Assembly: GCA_016789655.1 (NCBI GenBank)
Contig: JAEUQV010000038.1
Location: forward strand, 1-35,720
DNA length: 35,720 nt
Direction: 5' to 3'
Source of the DNA: Candidatus Saccharimonadota bacterium
Lineage (GTDB): Bacteria; Patescibacteriota; Saccharimonadia; Saccharimonadales; UBA4665
Positions 5,622 to 16,900 of this stretch are shown here, one piece after another. Under the pieces are notes generated by a model. That model made no database searches, was not told the DNA's origin, and was given only the letters and a program-made list of their open reading frames with translations. A program made the translations under genes and the position numbers. Within the stretch, counting starts at the first letter, position 1, and every line of letters begins with the position of its first letter.

Positions 5622-6323
5622 TTACAGTACTTCTTCGAGTGTGCGCCCAGCGTGCGACACCAGCGTCATGACATCGCGGTAACTTTGACGTGTGGGGCCA
5701 AGTACGCCTATATAGCTATGGTCGCTGAAGGGACTACGGAAGCGGCTAATAATAAGACTAACGTCTGCACTGCGACCAATCGGGTTTTCTGCTCCTATGT
5801 ACACGCTCAGCGGCTCGTTGGGCGCAGCTTCGCGCAACCATGGTTCAAGGTTATCCAGCAATCGTGCCACCTGTTGCACCTGGTGCCCACCTACAAACTC
5901 TGGCTGGCCAAAAAGGTTACTGAGACCAGACATATACAGCTGGTTGCCTATAGTGGCAAGGCCGAGATTATGCGTTAGCTCCACGAGAGTATCGACAGCA
6001 TTGCGTATAGCACGTTCTGGCAAGCCGCCATCTTGTAGGCGCGCTGCCAACGCGCGCTCTGCACGGCGCTCGGGAGCTAGCGTAGCCCCAGGTTGGGATA
6101 TATTGTTAACATAGAAGCGGTAGCCTTTATCTGTTGGTATACGTCCAGCACTGGTATGAGGCTGCCTAATATAACCGTGTATTTCAAGATCTGCCATTTC
6201 AGCCCGAATGGTGGCACTAGACACACCAAACACCTTAGCTAGCAAACTGCTGCCCACAGGCACAGCCACCTCAGCATACTGCTCAATAATAGCGGTCAAT
6301 ATTTGCTTTTGACGTTCTGTCAT
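5622..6323 (-). CDS. hrcA: HrcA heat-inducible repressor, short form
   Basis: 233 residues, compared with about 340 in typical HrcA. The N-terminal winged helix is complete: [20 protein letters not shown], the segment [14 protein letters not shown] for DNA contact, and [18 protein letters not shown]. The C-terminal part ([27 protein letters not shown]) matches the end of the GAF-like domain. Roughly 100 residues of the middle region, including the usual inserted dimerisation domain, are missing. The shortening looks like domain loss, not a frameshift. The protein is expected to bind the CIRCE sites at 6343-6369 and 853-927 and so repress its own operon and dnaK. The ATG at 6321-6323 lies 8 nt from the -10 box, so the mRNA is probably leaderless. 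Confidence 0.95.
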
Positions 6324-6331
6324 GATATAAA

Positions 6332-6369
6332 ATTATACCAATTTAGCACTCAAAAGTCTAGAGTGCCAA
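6332..6369 (-). promoter_or_regulatory. hrcA promoter with CIRCE operator
   Basis: A good CIRCE lies at 6343-6369: TTAGCACTC-N9-GAGTGCCAA, 17 of 18 consensus bases. It overlaps a promoter toward hrcA with TAGACT (6355-6360), a 17-nt spacer and TATAAT (6332-6337); the bases before the -10 form an extended TGG. Only 8 nt separate the -10 from the hrcA ATG, which places transcription start at or within a base or two of the start codon. Binding of HrcA here would give autorepression of hrcA-grpE. Confidence 0.93.
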
Positions 6370-6374
6370 ATTAT

Positions 6375-6492
6375 ATCCCGGACGCAACACTTCTCTTGTG
6401 CGAGTTGATCCGGGATGAAAAAGTGTATTAGACCTCTTCTAAAACCTACCCTTACTGCGGCTGTTTTTCAGGGTAGCTTTTAGAAGCGGTCT
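6375..6492 (-). terminator. Two hairpins between the dockerin gene and hrcA
   Basis: A strong hairpin has 23-nt arms at 6430-6452 and 6470-6492 with 21 of 23 positions paired and a 17-nt loop. On the minus strand it lies just after the dockerin gene and a CTTTTTC run follows about 8 nt later, so termination of the cohesin/dockerin operon is the simplest role. A second hairpin (ATCCCGGA at 6375-6382 with TCCGGGAT at 6409-6416) lies between it and the hrcA promoter. The pairing is read directly; terminator function is inferred and the U-tract is modest. Confidence 0.6.
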
Positions 6493-6503: not shown

Positions 6504-7169
6504 TCACTGACCGTAGGTGCTAGCCATCAGGCTAAAATCGAGGAAGTTCACCGTGCCGTCATTATTAATATCAGTGCGGCCCAAACTCCCTCCTGATTGA
6601 TTATATTTGGCAGCCAAGCGACTAAAATCCAAGAAATCAACTTTACCACTCTGATCGATATCAGCAGCTAAGTAGATGGTTGCGCAATTTGATCCATCGC
6701 CGGTCGGTGTACAGGTTACATCTTTGGTTAGTACTATACGATCTACGACGACACCGTCAGCATTGCCAATAAGCTTGAGGGTGTGGTTAGCGACAGTAAA
6801 GTTAACATCTATATTTGCCCCTCCAGATGTCTTGCTAATCCAGTTTGAGGTATTGCTTACAAATCGGGTCGTAGAGCCATTGGCATACACTGGAACGCTG
6901 CTGCCTCCTACGGTATAGCAAGCACCTCCATCGATTTCGAGCAGGAATGTGTTTGCGCTGGCACTTGGCGCAGCCATTCGTGTCCAGATGCGATACGTAC
7001 CAGCTGAAGTGATGCTAACATTACTATGTGTCACCGTACCGTAATCAGTCCCAGGTGCCGTGCAGGCTGCCGAAGCAATCGGGCTAGCCACAAGCATCGC
7101 AGTCATCGCAAATAGGGTTGAAAATAGGGATGAGACTATAGTATATACTGAAGTTTTTTTAGCGCGATA
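6504..7169 (-). CDS. Secreted CBM-dockerin protein
   Basis: 221 residues from a GTG at 7167-7169, chosen because GGGAGG lies just upstream; an ATG further upstream (7214) would lengthen the cytoplasmic N-terminus. Residues 1-35 form a Sec signal peptide with cleavage after SPIASA. Residues about 36-165 form a carbohydrate-binding domain of CBM6/CBM35 or malectin type (GTYRIWTRMAAPS, HTLKLIGNADGVVVDRIVLT). The C-terminus is a type I dockerin with two calcium-binding repeats, DIDQSGKVDFLD and DINNDGTVNFLD, and the protein ends right after repeat two. Predicted role: bind a polysaccharide and plug into a cohesin. The two genes upstream in the same operon encode cohesin-like domains; this gene overlaps the anchored cohesin gene by 11 bp. 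Confidence 0.85.
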   Translation of the reverse strand, partial: YRAKKTSVYTIVSSLFSTLFAMTAMLVASPIASAACTAPGTDYGTVTHSNVSITSAGTYRIWTRMAAPSASANTFLLEIDGGACYTVGGSSVPVYANGSTTRFVSNTSNWISKTSGGANIDVNFTVANHTLKLIGNADGVVVDRIVLTKDVTCTPTGDGSNCATIYLAADIDQSGKVDFLDFSRLAAKYNQSGGSLGRTDINNDGTVNFLDFSLMASTYGQ

Positions 7170-8028
7170 CACTGTTTCCTCCCTTATATATATTGCCTTT
7201 TTTCGGAAGCCCACGTTTCATTGTAACAAGATACACAAAATAACCTACTGCCACCAAGCCACCACCAGCAACAGTTATAAACAATATTGGTGCCATTGAA
7301 GCGGCACGATACTCTGGCAATCCCAGTTTTTCTAGGAGGTTCTTTGTGAACTCGATTGGGGCAGGCGAGCTGCTGGTAGCTGCACTGCGAGTCGCTATTT
7401 TGCCCCCAGTTGCTCCCTTTGGCAACACCTCACCATCGATAGTAACTGCTTGGCCGTTTAGTGTTGGGTTTGTGGCTACGCCCGCACGAGCTGCATTACC
7501 ACTCAACACTAACCTCGGGGTGCCATCTTTGAGCGCAGCAAAAGAAAGTGTGGCAACGAGTGAGTCGGCAGATACAGGGTCGCCGCCGAACTTCGCACTT
7601 TGAACCGTTACCTTGGCAGGAGCCGATGTCGCAGGGATTTGCGTGCTGAACGGCGATTCGGCGTAAGAAACCGACTTGTACTGTAGCTCACTGCTATCAT
7701 AGCCTACCCCAACCGTAACAGTGTCTATCGGAGTGCCGGGCTCGATACGAAGCGCAAGCTTAACCGAGTCGCCTTTCTTCATAGAGACAGCGGCAGGCTG
7801 CGTATAAATATTACCCATACTCGTAGCTGGTAACACGTAGCTTTTATCGGCAAATACATAGGCAAGTAGCGTCGGTACTACCAAAACGGCTACGACTACA
7901 GAGGTAAATGCTTTTGGATTGCGCCTTAGCTTTGCCCATACACCTTTTGCTGGCGCTCGCTTAGTCCCAGCTATTACTCTTTTGGTTGTTGACTTTTTAT
8001 TTTTTGCTGGTTTAGATATAGATTTCAT
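7159..8028 (-). CDS. Membrane-anchored cohesin-domain protein
   Basis: 289 residues. A Lys/Arg-rich N-terminus (residues 1-37) precedes a membrane segment or signal anchor at about 40-60 (TSVVVAVLVVPTLLAYVFA). Residues about 65-200 have the cohesin pattern: KKGDSVKLALRIEPG, VTVGVGYDSSELQYKS, then SLVATLSFAALKDG. A linker rich in Ala/Ser/Thr leads to a second membrane segment at about 247-268 (PILFITVAGGGLVAVGYFVY) and a basic tail. This suits a scaffold holding one cohesin outside the membrane for the dockerin protein encoded next. The gene is 8 bp downstream of the other cohesin gene and overlaps the dockerin gene. No clear ribosome-binding site; translation may be coupled. Cohesin call is by fold pattern. 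Confidence 0.75.
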   Translation of the reverse strand: MKSISKPAKNKKSTTKRVIAGTKRAPAKGVWAKLRRNPKAFTSVVVAVLVVPTLLAYVFADKSYVLPATSMGNIYTQPAAVSMKKGDSVKLALRIEPGTPIDTVTVGVGYDSSELQYKSVSYAESPFSTQIPATSAPAKVTVQSAKFGGDPVSADSLVATLSFAALKDGTPRLVLSGNAARAGVATNPTLNGQAVTIDGEVLPKGATGGKIATRSAATSSSPAPIEFTKNLLEKLGLPEYRAASMAPILFITVAGGGLVAVGYFVYLVTMKRGLPKKGNIYKGGNSVSR

Positions 8029-8036
8029 AATGTTGA

Positions 8037-8486
8037 CTAGTTAATTGTGTACGATCCGCCGTCTTTTTGGTCACATATGTCTGCAGAATCAGAAAACCGA
8101 GCTACACCAGACCCAGTATCGAATGCAATGGCAGCACTACCTGCGCCAACTATATCAAAGGTTACTGTGCCAACAAGTTGATCGCCCGTGACTGATCCCG
8201 CCAATAAAGCAACGCCTAGCCTAACGGTACCGCTACCGCCCGTATTTTCGATAGCAGTGGTAAATGCACCGCCCACGATTGATGTTGACTGGAACGAAAG
8301 CTGGCCAGTGGGATATGTCAGGTTCGCCTGTACGGCATTTACCGCATTGGCGCCACTATCTTCCCGTATTTCAACAACCAATGTACCACCGTTGGAATAG
8401 CTACCAGATGCTGGCGCAAGATACAGTCGCGCACCTCCGCCAGAGCCACCAGCCGAACGCATAAACCGTCGAGTTGAAATACTCAT
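8037..8486 (-). CDS. Single-domain cohesin-like protein with MSISTRRF N-terminus
   Basis: 149 residues starting at the ATG 8484-8486, chosen because a TATACT box ends 6 nt upstream; a longer frame starts at 8522 but would begin before that promoter. The body is a cohesin domain: ARLYLAPASGSYSNGG, AVNAVQANLTYPTGQLSF, and GDQLVGTVTFDIVGAG. No signal peptide and no membrane segment are visible, which is odd for a cohesin. The start MSISTRRFMRS resembles MSVFARRLQ and MSMFSRRLQ of two carbohydrate-active proteins in this window. First gene of the cohesin/dockerin operon. It could be a free adaptor or a surface subunit exported by an unknown route. Confidence 0.72.
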   Translation of the reverse strand: MSISTRRFMRSAGGSGGGARLYLAPASGSYSNGGTLVVEIREDSGANAVNAVQANLTYPTGQLSFQSTSIVGGAFTTAIENTGGSGTVRLGVALLAGSVTGDQLVGTVTFDIVGAGSAAIAFDTGSGVARFSDSADICDQKDGGSYTIN

Positions 8487-8492
8487 GCTTGC

Positions 8493-8498
8493 AGTATA
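8493..8498 (-). promoter_or_regulatory. -10 box of the cohesin/dockerin operon
   Basis: TATACT on the minus strand ends 6 nt before the ATG at 8486, predicting a leaderless or near-leaderless mRNA for the first cohesin gene. No convincing -35 box was found. Confidence 0.6.
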
Positions 8499-8537
8499 CC
8501 TTGGCTGTAGTCTAATACTCAACAGCCTTTTTTATAT

Positions 8538-9254
8538 TTATATGTGGTTTTTAAGGTCGCGTAAGATGTTTTCTACCCAAACACGGTAGCTTTTATCTAT
8601 TTGGGTGAACTTATCGTCATGGGCGATAATACCCTCTGCTGAATGTACCGCCTGATCTAAGTCTTCGTTTATTAGAAAGTGGTAGTAGTCGTGCGCCAAA
8701 GCATCCTCAAGTTCCTTAATAGCACTCTCTCTTCGGATTGGCCAAGCCGCATTAAACTCATCTTCGCTATCGTAACGGCGTTTGATGCGTCTCATCCATT
8801 CTTCGTAGCTCGGTGGGACAACGAATATTGCGGTTATATTATCTGAGAGCGACTTGAATGTATGTACGCCCTGGACATCAACGTCTATAATGGGTTGCTT
8901 GCCAGCAGCTTCAGCCTTTTCAAGCTCACTTACCAATACGCCGTTAATCTTTTCATGCACGGGCGCAACTTCTATGTACTCGCCGGCGCGCAATTTCTCG
9001 ACAGCCTCATCAGTCTGGAGAAAGATGTAGTCAACACCATTTTGTTCCATTACACCATTGTTGTCGCGTGGTTCGCGCGTGGTACTTGTCACGATATCGT
9101 GATATTTGCCTGATTTTAAGAGACCGTTCATCACAGAATTTTTGCCAGCACCAGCTGTTCCGGCAAAGATAACAAGCCGTTGTCTCTGTAAAACATCTAT
9201 AGCATGCTGGCTTGGGTGATATTGGGTGATAAGCTGTTTGATTTCGTCTGTCAT
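8538..9254 (-). CDS. gmk: Guanylate kinase-type protein
   Basis: 238 residues. Phosphorylates GMP to GDP using ATP. The P-loop is AGTAGAGKNS, so the residue after the lysine is Asn where most kinases have Ser or Thr. The GMP-binding segment is TSTTREPRDNNG followed by NGVDYIFL, and the lid/base region has FVVPPSYEEWMRRIKRR. About 30-40 residues longer than common Gmk, mostly at the N- and C-termini. Single-gene unit reading away from the structured element at 9327-9439. Start at 9252-9254 lies 6 nt from the -10 box. Ordinary nucleotide metabolism is the likely role. Confidence 0.9.
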   Translation of the reverse strand: MTDEIKQLITQYHPSQHAIDVLQRQRLVIFAGTAGAGKNSVMNGLLKSGKYHDIVTSTTREPRDNNGVMEQNGVDYIFLQTDEAVEKLRAGEYIEVAPVHEKINGVLVSELEKAEAAGKQPIIDVDVQGVHTFKSLSDNITAIFVVPPSYEEWMRRIKRRYDSEDEFNAAWPIRRESAIKELEDALAHDYYHFLINEDLDQAVHSAEGIIAHDDKFTQIDKSYRVWVENILRDLKNHI

Positions 9255-9522: not shown

Positions 9523-9999
9523 CTAGGCGAAGTTCGTACCGACAAGCGAGCCGTACCAGTTGGTGCCGCCATCGAGCGATTCGAATACAAGGATATCTAC
9601 TTGATTCGCACCTGTCGAAATGGTAGGTGCGCCACCTGACCAGTTTACACTCCCTGGCCATGTTACCGTTCGGCTGCCAGTAGCATCTTGCTTAAGATAC
9701 AGTGAAAAGCTGCATGCTTTACCATTTGTTGCACCACTAAACGTGAACGTGACATTACCCGTGAGCGTAATATTAAATACGTTACCGTTGTTTAGGTTAA
9801 GCGTTGTTGCGCCAGAAGCGTTCGCTGTTGAGACAGTTTCTTGGCCACCTTTGCTGGCTAGGGCTGCCAGACCAATAATCGGCGTGTTATTCCACTTTGA
9901 TGTTGCATTGTTGTATGATAGTACGTTATCTTGCGCTAGACCAGAGAAAAATATGTCATTAGCGTTCTGGATGCCCGTACCTGTTCCTGTAAATGGCAT
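9523..9999 (-). CDS. Tail-fibre-like protein of the MPFTGTGTG family
   Basis: 158 residues. The first 40 residues (MPFTGTGTGIQNAND, then FFSGLAQDNVLSYN) match the paralogue at 2853-3302. The C-terminal 100 residues are a compact beta-rich domain (TTLNLNNGNVFNITLTGN, TGSRTVTWPGSVNW, and ending GGTNWYGSLVGTNFA), of a type common in phage and bacterial fibre tips. No signal peptide. AGGAGG lies 6-7 nt before the ATG and overlaps the stop codon of the upstream gene at 10009-10971, 9 bp away, so the two genes form one operon ending at the terminator at 9468-9508. Likely a surface or extracellular adhesin; function unproven. Confidence 0.72.
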   Translation of the reverse strand: MPFTGTGTGIQNANDIFFSGLAQDNVLSYNNATSKWNNTPIIGLAALASKGGQETVSTANASGATTLNLNNGNVFNITLTGNVTFTFSGATNGKACSFSLYLKQDATGSRTVTWPGSVNWSGGAPTISTGANQVDILVFESLDGGTNWYGSLVGTNFA

Positions 10000-10008
10000 A
10001 GCTTCCTC

Positions 10009-10971
10009 CTAGTTCCTGTACCAGTTAGTGCCATCACTGACAAATTCAATCGCATCATATTGGTTCGATAGTACATGCGACCCAACTCCGGCTCCGTCTA
10101 TAAGCGCACCACCTTGCGGTACTATCTGCACCCCATTGGCGCCACTATTAGTACGCTTGATTCGAACAATTGCACCGGCGCTTGCAGCTGGCAACGTTAC
10201 ATCAAACCCAGTGCTTGAAGCGTCGGCCAAAATATATTCATGGTCAGCGGCAGTCGTAGCCGCGGTTGCCGTACGGAAGCTGAATGTCCAGCCGCCGCCA
10301 CCGCCACCAGAAGGTGTCTGCCAGTTGGCAGCTGATGCACCAGTAGCGGTCAAGACTTGGCCGCTGCTTGGAGTGCCAGAAACTGTAATACCATTGACCT
10401 TAGCTACGCTAGGAGCATTATAGGTACCACCTAAGTCGCCGGCTAGCTGCACGAGACCAGGTGTTGAATTGTCTGCGTTTGGAGCTCCACTTGCTGCAAC
10501 ACCATCGACGTATGATTTGTTCGCTGCATCTGTAGCTCCCGTAGGCGTTGGGACTACCGGAGAACTTGAAAAGGTCTTCACGCCAGCTACCGTTTGTGCG
10601 CCTGCGAGAGTAACAACGCTAGTAGTATCTGCTTTTGCGGCAAGATCGGCAGTGAGGTTTGTGATGTCTGATTCGGCAAGCACGACCGCACCGGTACGGC
10701 CTGCTACAGAAGTTACCGCTGGGGCTGCGCCACCTGAAGGCGTCTTCCATGCCAAACCACTTGCAGCCGTCGAGTCTTTAACCAGCACGTCATCATCAAC
10801 GCCTCCAGATGGTGCTATTGCAGCTACATTGACTGCTCCTGGGGCGATTGTCGCTGAAGTTACACTATTATCTTTGAGTGAACCGTCTGTTTTGTGGACG
10901 GTACCCAAGAAATCATTGAGGATGGTACCCCAGTTCCCATCGTCACCTCCCGGTTGTGGTAAACGTGCCAT
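10009..10971 (-). CDS. Large tail-fibre-like protein (MARLPQPGGDDG family)
   Basis: 320 residues. The N-terminus MARLPQPGGDDGNWG and NDFLGTVHKTDGSL form a conserved module that I recognise from fibre-like proteins of CPR and other bacteria. The middle has phage tail-fibre repeats: VTSVAGRTGAVVLAESDI, then AGVKTFSSSPVVPTPTG and ANKSYVDG. The C-terminus is a beta-sandwich tip that ends DGTNWYRN, like the end of the next gene. No signal peptide or membrane segment. A TATACT box about 50 nt upstream and AGGAGA 10 nt before the ATG mark it as the first gene of a two-gene operon. The role is probably adhesion or glycan binding. No capsid, portal or lysis genes occur here, so it is not part of a recognisable prophage. 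Confidence 0.75.
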   Translation of the reverse strand: MARLPQPGGDDGNWGTILNDFLGTVHKTDGSLKDNSVTSATIAPGAVNVAAIAPSGGVDDDVLVKDSTAASGLAWKTPSGGAAPAVTSVAGRTGAVVLAESDITNLTADLAAKADTTSVVTLAGAQTVAGVKTFSSSPVVPTPTGATDAANKSYVDGVAASGAPNADNSTPGLVQLAGDLGGTYNAPSVAKVNGITVSGTPSSGQVLTATGASAANWQTPSGGGGGGWTFSFRTATAATTAADHEYILADASSTGFDVTLPAASAGAIVRIKRTNSGANGVQIVPQGGALIDGAGVGSHVLSNQYDAIEFVSDGTNWYRN

Positions 10972-11486: not shown

Positions 11487-12689
11487 CTAGACTGTTTGCT
11501 GCGACACCATACGTGTAGGCATAAAGAAACCATCGACACTCATGGGGCGCGCTGAGGCCGATTTGAAAATCGGAGTCTGTGAATTTACGATACTCTGTGT
11601 ATTTTGCCTTGGGGGCAAGCCGCTAGCCCGCACCCCAACCATGCCATCAATACTTCGACGAGATGTGCTAGGGACACTACTGCGCCGAATCACTCGAGAT
11701 TGGGTAGTCGGCGTCTGCATCTGGGGGTGACTTTGCTTGTTCGCTACGGTCTTGGGTGAACCCTGAGCGCTCACAGGCATAGCTGTAGCGCGTACATCGG
11801 CAAACTGACGTTGTTGTATAGGGTGCAGCGGTTGAAGTCGCTGTCGGGTCTCCGGCTTAGCAGCTATTGGGCCCGTAGCTGCAAGGACAGGTTCATAGGT
11901 TTGGTTTTGGGCAGCTTTCAGCTTTCGCGTCTTGGCTTTTTTACCCTTCTGCTTCATCCAAACAATGATAATACCTACTTGGTACATAACTACGATAGGT
12001 GCCGCCAATAGCGTTTGATTTACTACATCGGGTGTTGGCGAGACTATAGCTGCCATCACAAATGAAGCGACGATCATATGACGCTGGTAGCTCATGAGCG
12101 CCCGAGGCTTGAGCGGCGTTGCGCTGTTGATGATGAGCATTATGAGAGGCAGCTGGAAGAGTAAGGCACCTGCAAGCAGGTACGCCATAATAAATGACAT
12201 ATACGCATCTATGGTCAACATCGCGGTAATGTTGTTTAGATCTATACCGGTCAAAAAATGTAGCGCGGCTGGCAAACTTACAAAATACGCAAAGGCAATA
12301 CCTGTCATTGCTAGCAATGTAGACGCAATCGTATAGCCCAAGATGGCACGTGAGCGGCGGTTTGGCATAACCGGTGCTATAAATTTATACAACTGATACA
12401 CAATTACCGGCATAACACCGATAAAGCCTGCATACATACATACTTTAAGGATAAAGCTAAGACCCCCAGCGGGCGAAAGGTAGTACAAACGTTGATGCCC
12501 GAGGGGCTTCACCAGAATATTAATGATATCTTGAAAGAACGGGTAGGCGATACCCGCTGAAACGACGAATCCCACCGCCACATAAAACAGTCGGCCCTTC
12601 AACTCCTGGATATGATCCATAAAAGTGGGAAGAGCCGCTTGTGTCTGGTTGTGATCGTTACCCGTTGTTGCTTTGCTTTGGTTGTTCAT
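11487..12689 (-). CDS. tatC: TatC twin-arginine translocase subunit with long C-terminal tail
   Basis: About 400 residues from the ATG at 12687-12689; a typical TatC is about 250. The core starts FMDHIQELKGRLFYVAVGF, the conserved cytoplasmic N-terminus with the signal-binding Glu, and has six hydrophobic segments, including YPFFQDIINILVKPLG, PAALHFLTGIDLNNITAML and SFVMAAIVSPTPDVVNQTLL. After residue about 255 comes a 140-residue polar tail rich in Gln, Ser, Thr, Pro and Arg with two RRSS/RRSI pairs and the end MSVDGFFMPTRMVSQQTV. The start overlaps the end of tatA by 32 bp and AAGAAGG abuts the ATG, so the exact start is uncertain; a later ATG at 12620 is possible. Forms the Tat pore with TatA for export of folded proteins. 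Confidence 0.93.
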   Translation of the reverse strand: MNNQSKATTGNDHNQTQAALPTFMDHIQELKGRLFYVAVGFVVSAGIAYPFFQDIINILVKPLGHQRLYYLSPAGGLSFILKVCMYAGFIGVMPVIVYQLYKFIAPVMPNRRSRAILGYTIASTLLAMTGIAFAYFVSLPAALHFLTGIDLNNITAMLTIDAYMSFIMAYLLAGALLFQLPLIMLIINSATPLKPRALMSYQRHMIVASFVMAAIVSPTPDVVNQTLLAAPIVVMYQVGIIIVWMKQKGKKAKTRKLKAAQNQTYEPVLAATGPIAAKPETRQRLQPLHPIQQRQFADVRATAMPVSAQGSPKTVANKQSHPQMQTPTTQSRVIRRSSVPSTSRRSIDGMVGVRASGLPPRQNTQSIVNSQTPIFKSASARPMSVDGFFMPTRMVSQQTV

Positions 12690-12834
12690 CCTTCTTGTCG
12701 TCCGCCATACTATTTCGCAATTCCTTCGCTGACGTACCAACACTACGTGCTAGTTCAGGAAGTTTCTTGGCGCCAAAAAGCAGCAAGACGATAATCAAGA
12801 TAATGATGAGTTCTGGTGCACCTAAATTTGGCAT
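12658..12834 (-). CDS. tatA: TatA/TatE twin-arginine translocase subunit
   Basis: 58 residues from the ATG at 12832-12834, with GAGGGG 4-5 nt upstream; a frame extension to 12897 runs through the promoter and is not used. Sequence MPNLGAPELIIILIIVLLLFG then AKKLPELARSVG: an N-terminal membrane helix, the FGxKKLPEL hinge and an amphipathic helix, followed by a short charged tail. Polymerises around TatC to translocate folded proteins. First gene of the tatA-tatC pair; only one TatA-type gene is seen, as in minimal Tat systems. Confidence 0.95.
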   Translation of the reverse strand: MPNLGAPELIIILIIVLLLFGAKKLPELARSVGTSAKELRNSMADDKKDEQPKQSNNG

Positions 12835-15019: not shown

Positions 15020-16900
15020 TTAATCGCGTTTTAGCATTACCGTAAACGCTTCGGCAGGGATATCGACCTTGCCGAAACGCTTCATGCGTTTTTTGCCTTT
15101 GGCTTGTTTGGCGAGGACTTTTTTCTTTCGCGAGACATCGCCACCATACAAGCCAATGGTAACGTCTTTGCGGTAAGCGCTTATGTCTTCGCGGGCGATA
15201 AAGCGGCCATTTATCCCTGCCTGAAGTGCGACTTGAAAGTTTTGGCGTGGGATCACTTCTTTCAGCTTAGCTACGATATCACGCCCAAGTTTCTGAGATT
15301 CGCTGCGGTGTGCCATGACGCTCAGTGAAGCAACAATCTCTCCTGCTACGTAAAAATCAACCTTTACTAGATCTTCTGCACGGTAGTTGTCGAGCTCGTA
15401 GTTGAAGCTGCCATAGCCGCTGGTGATACTTTTGAGCTGATCGTAGAAGTCGGTAAGTAAATTGGCTAATGGAGCCTCAATACTCACAAGCGCACGATCT
15501 TCCACATAACTAAGATTCTTTTGCAATCCTCGCTTCGAAGATATAAGCTGGATTACCGGCCCCACATACTCTTTTGGCACAACTATTTCGCCTTTGATCC
15601 ATGGTTCTCGAATTTCGGTGATTTTTGTTGGGTCAGGCAAATCTGCAGCCGATTTTATATCAATCTCCTCGCCACTATTGAGCCGAACCTGATAGTCAGT
15701 GCTGGGGTTCGTAACGACAAGATCGAGATTATATTCGCGCTCCAACCGTTCTCGGATGATATCCATATGCAGCAAACCCAGGAAGCCAATACGCACACCA
15801 AATCCTAGGACGGGTGAATTCTCAGGGGTGAATTGCAGCGCGGAATCACTCAGACTTAGTTTTTCTATAGCATCTTTCAGCTCTTGGTAATACTCGTTAC
15901 TTTCCGGGAAAAAGCCTGCGTAGACGAAAGGCTGCACATTTCGGTACCCAGGTAACGGCTCTGTTGCCGGCTTTTGTACCAATGTGATGGTGTCACCGAC
16001 TTTTGCCTCGCGGGTACTTTTGAGGTTCGTCACGATGTAGCCGATCTCTCCTGCGGATAACGCACTGCCCGGTGTCATATCGGGCTTGAGCGCCCCAACT
16101 TCCAGCGCCAGACCATGCGCAGCCGTCGCCATCATGTGGATATGGGCATTTTTTGCAATGCTTCCATCAAACAATCGCACGTACAGGATAACCCCACGAT
16201 AATCATCGTAGTACGAATCAAATATAAGCGCCCTGGTCTTTGCGTCAGGGGCCGTCCCTGTCGCAAACATTTGTTCGGTTTTTGGCGGAGGGATGTCTGC
16301 GACGACACGGTCGAGCACCGCCTCGACACCCTGCCCTGTCTTGGCCGAGATAAGCAATATGTCTTCCTTCGTACAACCGAGCAGACTTATGACTTCCCGA
16401 CTCACTTTTTCTACGTCAGCTGCTGGCAAGTCAATCTTATTCAGTACTGGAATGATATGCAAATCCTGTTCCATGGCTAGATACACATTGGCGAGAGTTT
16501 GCGCCTGTATTCCTTGGCTGGCATCGACTACCAGTAATGCCCCCTCGCATGCCTGGAGGCTGCGTGATACTTCGTAGCTAAAGTCGACATGCCCCGGCGT
16601 ATCTATAAGGTTTAGTTCAAATTCCTGCGTCTTTGGAGCTTGAACATATGAATTTTGGTTATTATTTGGAATTTCATGCTTGGAATTTGGCGCTTGGGGT
16701 GCCCGGTAGACCATCCTTACTGGCGCTAGTTTAATAGTAATACCCTTCTCGCGCTCCAGGTCCATCTTATCAAGCAGTTGCGCTTTCATATTACGCTTAT
16801 CGACCGTACCGGTAAGCTCAAGCATACGATCTGCTAAGGTCGACTTGCCGTGATCAATGTGCGCAATAATGCAGAAGTTACGTATGTGTGATTGATCCAT
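15020..16900 (-). CDS. lepA: LepA / EF4 translational GTPase with a repeat-derived insertion
   Basis: 626 residues, slightly longer than the usual 600. Ribosome-associated GTPase that back-translocates stalled ribosomes. G1 is AHIDHGKST (13-21), G2 around EKGITIK, G3 DTPGHVDF (100-107), G4 NKID (LHIIPVLNKIDLPAADVE). The EF4 C-terminus RKKKVLAKQAKGKKRMKRFG and the final AEAFTVMLKRD are present. Residues about 67-92 (containing NSKHEIPNNNQNSYVQAP) are an insertion before G3 not found in standard LepA; its DNA resembles short AATTCC-type repeats. The ATG is preceded by the heptamer array at 16911-16964. The 3' end is copied at 14864-14950. Confidence 0.97.
   Translation of the reverse strand: MDQSHIRNFCIIAHIDHGKSTLADRMLELTGTVDKRNMKAQLLDKMDLEREKGITIKLAPVRMVYRAPQAPNSKHEIPNNNQNSYVQAPKTQEFELNLIDTPGHVDFSYEVSRSLQACEGALLVVDASQGIQAQTLANVYLAMEQDLHIIPVLNKIDLPAADVEKVSREVISLLGCTKEDILLISAKTGQGVEAVLDRVVADIPPPKTEQMFATGTAPDAKTRALIFDSYYDDYRGVILYVRLFDGSIAKNAHIHMMATAAHGLALEVGALKPDMTPGSALSAGEIGYIVTNLKSTREAKVGDTITLVQKPATEPLPGYRNVQPFVYAGFFPESNEYYQELKDAIEKLSLSDSALQFTPENSPVLGFGVRIGFLGLLHMDIIRERLEREYNLDLVVTNPSTDYQVRLNSGEEIDIKSAADLPDPTKITEIREPWIKGEIVVPKEYVGPVIQLISSKRGLQKNLSYVEDRALVSIEAPLANLLTDFYDQLKSITSGYGSFNYELDNYRAEDLVKVDFYVAGEIVASLSVMAHRSESQKLGRDIVAKLKEVIPRQNFQVALQAGINGRFIAREDISAYRKDVTIGLYGGDVSRKKKVLAKQAKGKKRMKRFGKVDIPAEAFTVMLKRD

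Follow-up and report, generated by a model that had tools for sequence, protein, structure and literature searches.

A predicted surface-display pair of membrane cohesin and secreted dockerin in a Saccharibacterium and its order

The closest described system comes from the same phylum: Starr et al. (2018) attributed to the Saccharibacterium T. rhizospherense a “simple, two-subunit cellulosome”, which they read as serving cellulose degradation (PMC6031116). A two-part cohesin-dockerin unit is implied, as in the locus presented here; but the dockerin protein of our locus is enzyme-free, the cargo of its relatives is mostly non-cellulolytic, and the passages of that paper that deal with the unit give no sequences, domain architecture or distribution. 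A second precedent is SEML1_0315, a dockerin surface protein of the Saccharibacterium Southlakia epibionticum that Wang et al. (2023) found among its essential envelope proteins, with a speculated role on host glycans; the main text names no cohesin partner for it (PMC10633639). The type I pairs of clostridia (C. cellulolyticum 2vn5, C. acetobutylicum 6kgc) share with our locus the cohesin fold and a two-repeat, near-symmetric calcium-loop dockerin, but identities are 15-18%, the cohesin here is the only one of a membrane-spanning protein, where clostridia have a polycohesin scaffoldin, and there are no cellulases. Cohesins outside cellulosomes occur in A. fulgidus (2xdh) and in C. perfringens NagJ (2jh2), in other architectures, whereas here cohesin genes are linked to adjacent dockerin genes across a whole order. 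An open-access literature search returned no account of order-wide cohesin-dockerin gene pairs, of their cargo or of the gene trio described below, and the broader order-wide pattern appears to be undescribed so far. The means by which Saccharibacteria hold on to their host cells and exploit them are a central question in the biology of CPR bacteria.

The window, that is, the whole stretch of DNA that was analysed, is 35,720 nucleotides long. The initial annotation placed it in a probable CPR genome, and the host is indeed a Saccharibacterium: a genome of the same genus (G005, DAIDKK010000001.1) belongs to Candidatus Saccharibacteria. Three genes are tightly packed on the minus strand between the guanylate kinase gene (8538-9254) and hrcA (5622-6323), which bears out the operon layout proposed at the outset. 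The first gene, coh1 (8037-8486), encodes a free cohesin of 149 amino acids; the second, coh2 (7159-8028), begins after a gap of 8 nucleotides and encodes a membrane-anchored cohesin of 289 amino acids, the predicted socket; the third (6504-7172) encodes a secreted CBM-dockerin protein of 222 amino acids, the predicted plug. We think it probable that the trio constitutes a two-component surface-display unit accompanied by one orphan cohesin.

The GTG start of the third gene, at 7172, overlaps the stop of coh2 by 14 nucleotides, an arrangement which, as read from the sequence, is one of translational coupling. The first-listed start of this gene, GTG 7214, is probably wrong, GTG 7172 being the one preceded by a Shine-Dalgarno sequence, AAGGGAGG (7178-7185, minus strand). 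For coh1, TTG 8522 was rejected as a start, an orthologue of equal length in genome G279 aligning from ATG 8486. A promoter-like TTGAGT-18-TATACT (8493-8522, minus strand) ends 6 nucleotides short of that ATG, so that the coh1 transcript is possibly leaderless; the promoter call is weak, because the motif scan found 8 such sites against 5.3 +/- 2.5 in shuffles, and the promoter and terminator scans barely exceed shuffles. Two further elements were noticed by eye: an imperfect inverted repeat of about 22 base pairs at 6430-6492, just past the dockerin gene, is a candidate terminator before hrcA, and a CIRCE-like inverted repeat, TTAGCACTC-N9-GAGTGCCAA, lies at 6343-6369, directly upstream of hrcA-grpE.

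The CBM-dockerin protein consists of a signal peptide, a beta-rich domain of 130 amino acids and two dockerin repeats. As the initial annotation had it, the signal peptide (MYRAKK...ASPIASA; 7068-7172, minus strand) is present: a hydrophobic segment peaks at residues 12-30, with a hydropathy of 1.82, and is followed by an AxA-like site. The two dockerin repeats reported at the same time also hold. The dockerin (6510-6671, minus strand) matches Dockerin_1 PF00404 with E=1.5e-7 and 31.9 bits for a cut-off of 22.9; its two EF-hand-like repeats of about 22 residues, DIDQSGKVDFLDFSRLAAKYNQ and DINNDGTVNFLDFSLMASTYGQ, each have a complete calcium-loop motif, D-x-D/N-x-S/D-G-x-V plus Asp12, with all calcium ligands, and its model superposes on 2y3n_B with a TMt of 0.84 (Foldseek).

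The beta-rich domain (6678-7067, minus strand) is a CBM6/CBM35-like beta-sandwich. The AlphaFold model of the protein has a pTM of 0.60, with a pLDDT of about 90 across most of the CBM-like part, and the top Foldseek matches of this part are CBM35 and CBM6 modules (2wz8, 5e-4; 2cdp, 9.5e-4), with values of 5e-4 to 1e-3 overall and a TMt of about 0.5. It shares the fold of these modules but differs from them in having four conserved cysteines and in falling under every Pfam CBM cut-off: CBM_35 gives 0.027, at 15.2 bits versus 28, and a relative (L106) is likewise below for CBM_6, at 18.6 bits versus 28.9. Residues C37, C85, W111, C154 and C163 are invariant across 18 relatives, and the domain recurs in numerous dockerin proteins elsewhere in the order, at identities of at most 61% (the G036 copy). 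A second copy, at 35% identity, is found in the same genome, in a protein of 489 amino acids cut by a contig end (G000:C104:3-1469, minus strand); a dockerin could lie past that end.

The membrane anchoring proposed for coh2 is supported by hydropathy. Its protein has a basic N-terminus of 40 amino acids, a hydrophobic segment at residues 41-59 (7852-7908, minus strand; hydropathy 2.36) that is a signal anchor or a signal peptide, the cohesin domain (7426-7791, minus strand), a short linker, a transmembrane segment at residues 248-266 (7231-7287, minus strand; hydropathy 1.98), at the same place in relatives, and a basic tail. The protein matches PF00963 with E=4.7e-6 and 27.3 bits, above the curated cut-off of 24.1, and a search on the genome gives the domain E=9.2e-7. 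Relatives of coh2 were found in 24 of 99 genomes. A profile of full-length membrane cohesins returned no cohesin match in the PDB, and 11 aligned cohesins proved too divergent for a pattern search. The third cohesin of the genome (G000:C45:3370-4827, plus strand) is encoded with no dockerin nearby; it has a signal peptide, a cohesin, Fn3-like and carboxypeptidase-regulatory-like domains and a transmembrane segment, the usual architecture among relatives.

The free cohesin coh1 has no match in Pfam. However, a cohesin HMM built from other Saccharibacteria only recognises one complete domain with E=1.4e-37, better than for the Pfam-recognised coh2. The AlphaFold model, from 46 related domains, has a pLDDT of 94.8, and its top PDB matches in Foldseek are all solved cohesins: 6kgf (E=3.7e-10), 2vn5 and 2xdh, with a TM of about 0.75 to 6kg and 2vn5. 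On this model coh1 clearly has the cohesin fold, a nine-stranded beta-sandwich, so that the cohesin identity first assigned to both proteins holds, for coh1 by model and lineage HMM and for coh2 by PF00963. Hydropathy reveals no hydrophobic segment and no export signal at the N-terminus of coh1; a Tat signal was considered and rejected, since an RR is there but no hydrophobic region. Among the Foldseek matches is the autonomous cohesin CohG/ScaG of Ruminococcus flavefaciens (4n2o, 4wkz), which stands alone in the same way, the difference being that coh1 is devoid of any export signal.

It is thus natural to ask if coh1 is the decaying remnant of a former two-cohesin membrane protein, having lost signal peptide and anchor, all the more as relatives do have membrane proteins with two cohesins. 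We find this doubtful: the modelled fold is intact, and genome G279, of a second family of Saccharibacteria, encodes an orthologue of exactly 149 amino acids, equally leaderless, with 51% identity over 148 amino acids. The search for the same trio in related genomes, suggested with the initial annotation, was indeed successful in G279, where all three genes are found in the same order, with a membrane cohesin of 209 amino acids (46%) and a CBM-dockerin protein of 219 amino acids (L155_3; 61% over 214 amino acids). Because it recurs in another family, the trio is not a chance assembly. On the other hand, of the six other genomes in their own genus, five yielded no match to coh1 or coh2, and G005 has a different cohesin-dockerin pair. 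This distribution suggests that the trio spread by cassette transfer. Upstream of gmk and the trio are two genes for leaderless phage-tail-fibre-like proteins (9523-9999 and 10009-10971, both on the minus strand). The first of them matches a tail fibre PHROGs family with 2.8e-18, and may travel with the cassette, since a homologue at 48% identity lies right beside the trio of G279 (L155:3727-4176).

The pairing of cohesins and dockerins can be studied throughout the order. Among its 295 genomes, Pfam detects a cohesin in 57, a dockerin in 84 and both domains in 49, an odds ratio of 35.5 (p=1e-24). The nearest cohesin and dockerin are within 5 kb of each other in 44 of these 49 genomes (35 genera, 14 families), a count that includes some genomes with both domains in one chain; random placement would give about 2.5. 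When only separate genes are counted, 38 genomes among the fetched loci show a dockerin gene free of any cohesin domain no more than 3 kb away from a cohesin gene, mostly at a distance of -28 to +16 nucleotides, so that operonic pairing is conserved. The association is, if anything, understated, because the Pfam dockerin count takes in short cytosolic EF-hand proteins, which inflates the number of dockerin-only genomes, and because Pfam overlooks some cohesins adjoining dockerins that the lineage HMM recovers (G132, G172, G159 and G050). One such EF-hand protein occurs in our own genome: the “dockerin” match on contig C23, a leaderless protein of 79 amino acids with 21-23 bits for the dockerin class profiles described below, was rejected as a second plug.

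These counts bear on the possibility that no pairing takes place at all, the dockerin being a calcium-stabilised C-terminal tag, the cohesins generic beta-sandwich stalks, and each protein an adhesin acting alone. Peer et al. are said to have reported in 2009 that single cohesin or dockerin domains occur in many non-cellulosomal proteins from all domains of life, and 35 genomes of the order have a dockerin but no Pfam cohesin, although some of these dockerins are the short EF-hand proteins and some of these genomes have cohesins that Pfam missed. We hold such independent adhesins to be unlikely, as they would explain neither the co-occurrence, nor an adjacency of 44 against 2.5, nor the matching divergence within families to which we now turn.

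For 37 neighbouring cohesin-dockerin gene pairs, we compared the dockerins with the window dockerin, and the cohesins with coh1 and coh2. Dockerin similarity follows coh2 similarity (rho 0.69, or 0.695 as a partial correlation controlling for LepA identity; permutation p=2e-4), and does not follow similarity to coh1 (rho -0.30 to -0.33). Cohesin and dockerin distances are also correlated in Mantel tests, with r=0.54 (p=3e-4) inside the window's family and r=0.34 (p=0.005) outside. Profiles of two classes, A and B, assign the dockerin (85.0 bits for A versus 43.7 for B) and coh2 (101.9 versus 64.5) to class A, and coh1 (83.8 versus 134.6) to class B; leave-one-out agreement is 28 of 29, for labels set by eye from the dockerin sequences. 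Unsupervised clustering of the dockerins or cohesins into two to four groups only split off outliers.

Since dockerin similarity tracks coh2 and not coh1, which is of the other class and has no export signal, we predict that the membrane cohesin and the dockerin are the cognate pair. However, there is always the possibility that correlated divergence arises without binding, because adjacent genes move together. The initial annotation had supposed that cohesins and dockerin of the trio pair: co-occurrence, adjacency and correlated divergence favour this for coh2, while a leaderless coh1 of the other class speaks against it, so that probably only one cohesin is engaged.

The excess of cohesins leaves room for another hypothesis, in which they would be sockets for the dockerin proteins of other organisms, for instance host or community enzymes, and the cell's own dockerin a cap or a competitor. 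The genome has three cohesins for a single true dockerin, which is of class A while the free cohesin is of class B, and the assembly, 93% complete, contains no class-B dockerin to match coh1. Yet throughout the order dockerin genes adjoin cohesin genes and diverge in step with them, and a free cohesin with no export signal is hard to reconcile with the capture of foreign proteins, which we consider quite improbable.

What the relatives carry on their dockerins helps to interpret the predicted pair of coh2 and dockerin. Peptidases are found among them (kumamolisin-like S53 sedolisins, with a profile E=7.5e-31, S8 subtilases, and a BSP peptidase with a ricin lectin), as are wall and glycan enzymes (polysaccharide deacetylases with CBM4_9, a GH25 muramidase, GH16 with CBM6, and an N-acetylmuramoyl-alanine amidase with peptidoglycan-binding repeats), BNR/sortilin propellers, beta-helices, and the CBM of the window, alone or with Ig domains. 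The window dockerin is 61-67% identical to dockerins on sedolisins in G005, G014 and G018: as judged from these identities, cargo has been exchanged while the dockerin type stayed the same. The observation made at the outset that the dockerin protein carries no enzyme is thus correct here but does not extend to a general trait; since dockerins of this type bear peptidases and cell-wall enzymes in relatives, the enzyme-free state is a local variant, and the window unit is the smallest, enzyme-free version of the order's system.

The word cellulosome, used in the initial annotation for the trio, is not supported: each window protein has at most one cohesin and there is no multi-cohesin scaffoldin here, the CBM-like domain is on the dockerin protein and not on the scaffold, and the genome's only true dockerin protein has no glycoside hydrolase or other enzyme. 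That the unit is a true cellulosome in reduced form, acting on plant polysaccharide, is very improbable, in spite of the published proposal for T. rhizospherense and of GH16 on some dockerins, given that the families recorded for 81 dockerin proteins include no GH5, 9 or 48, that recognisable enzyme cargo is mainly peptidase, polysaccharide deacetylase or peptidoglycan-acting, and that the window plug is without any enzyme. The set of cohesins and dockerins in the order suggests a modular surface-display system instead. NCBIfam “exoglucan_CbhB” matches on dockerin proteins were set aside as probable cross-hits of Fn3 domains.

Larger assemblies were observed elsewhere in the order. In G031, G181 and G199 (L109, L110, L152), scaffoldin-like proteins of about 1000-1200 amino acids combine three cohesins, Fn3 repeats and a C-terminal dockerin, and their genes adjoin those of two-cohesin membrane proteins; from their domain content, the three-cohesin and two-cohesin proteins possibly form multi-slot assemblies. 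In G045, G102 and G154 (L125, L135-L142, L157-L162), there are many dockerin proteins per genome, with ten dockerin matches in G045, and the dockerin is often N-terminal, right behind a signal anchor.

For the window, the reading that we favour would work as follows. The coh2 protein would be inserted in the cell's cytoplasmic membrane and expose its cohesin domain on the outside; the CBM-dockerin protein of 222 amino acids would be exported by Sec, its dockerin folding in extracellular calcium and docking onto the cohesin of coh2. The cell would thereby display a CBM6/35-like glycan-binding domain that may attach it to a polysaccharide, most plausibly in the envelope of its host bacterium or in the surrounding matrix. 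Considering how members of the phylum live, and that relatives carry cargo directed at cell walls, a glycan of the host envelope is the likeliest target. Within a system found across the order, whose dockerins take exchangeable cargo, the unit would be one of the cargo variants; coh1, which is conserved but of the other cohesin class, would stay outside the predicted pair. A wider proposal, that the whole order uses a modular rack of weapons and adhesins in which membrane cohesins hold swappable dockerin cargo in order to hold or breach the host envelope, with at least two mutually specific classes and some multi-slot scaffoldins, seems to us evenly balanced between true and false.

For the essential dockerin protein of S. 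epibionticum, a genetically tractable species, the locus and its relatives suggest a possible partner and mechanism: a small, testable membrane socket with a set of dockerin cargo. They also indicate that cohesin-dockerin assembly has been put to use beyond biomass degradation, in the reduced genomes of epibionts, where the cargo is directed against proteins and the walls of bacteria. Minimal cohesin-dockerin pairs could also be useful as orthogonal binding modules.

Three other genes of the window, all on the minus strand, deserve mention. A protein of 628 amino acids (937-2823) has a PKD domain and a polysaccharide lyase 14-like domain (2.3e-22), and is another candidate glycan-active surface protein. 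Near the trio, a TatC of 418 amino acids (11487-12743) has about 170 extra C-terminal residues past the TatC domain. Finally, the match of nearly all relatives to LepA (15020-16900) is split into residues 1-66 and residues from about 93 to 626, which gives the stretch from about 67 to 92 the appearance of an insertion in the present genome.
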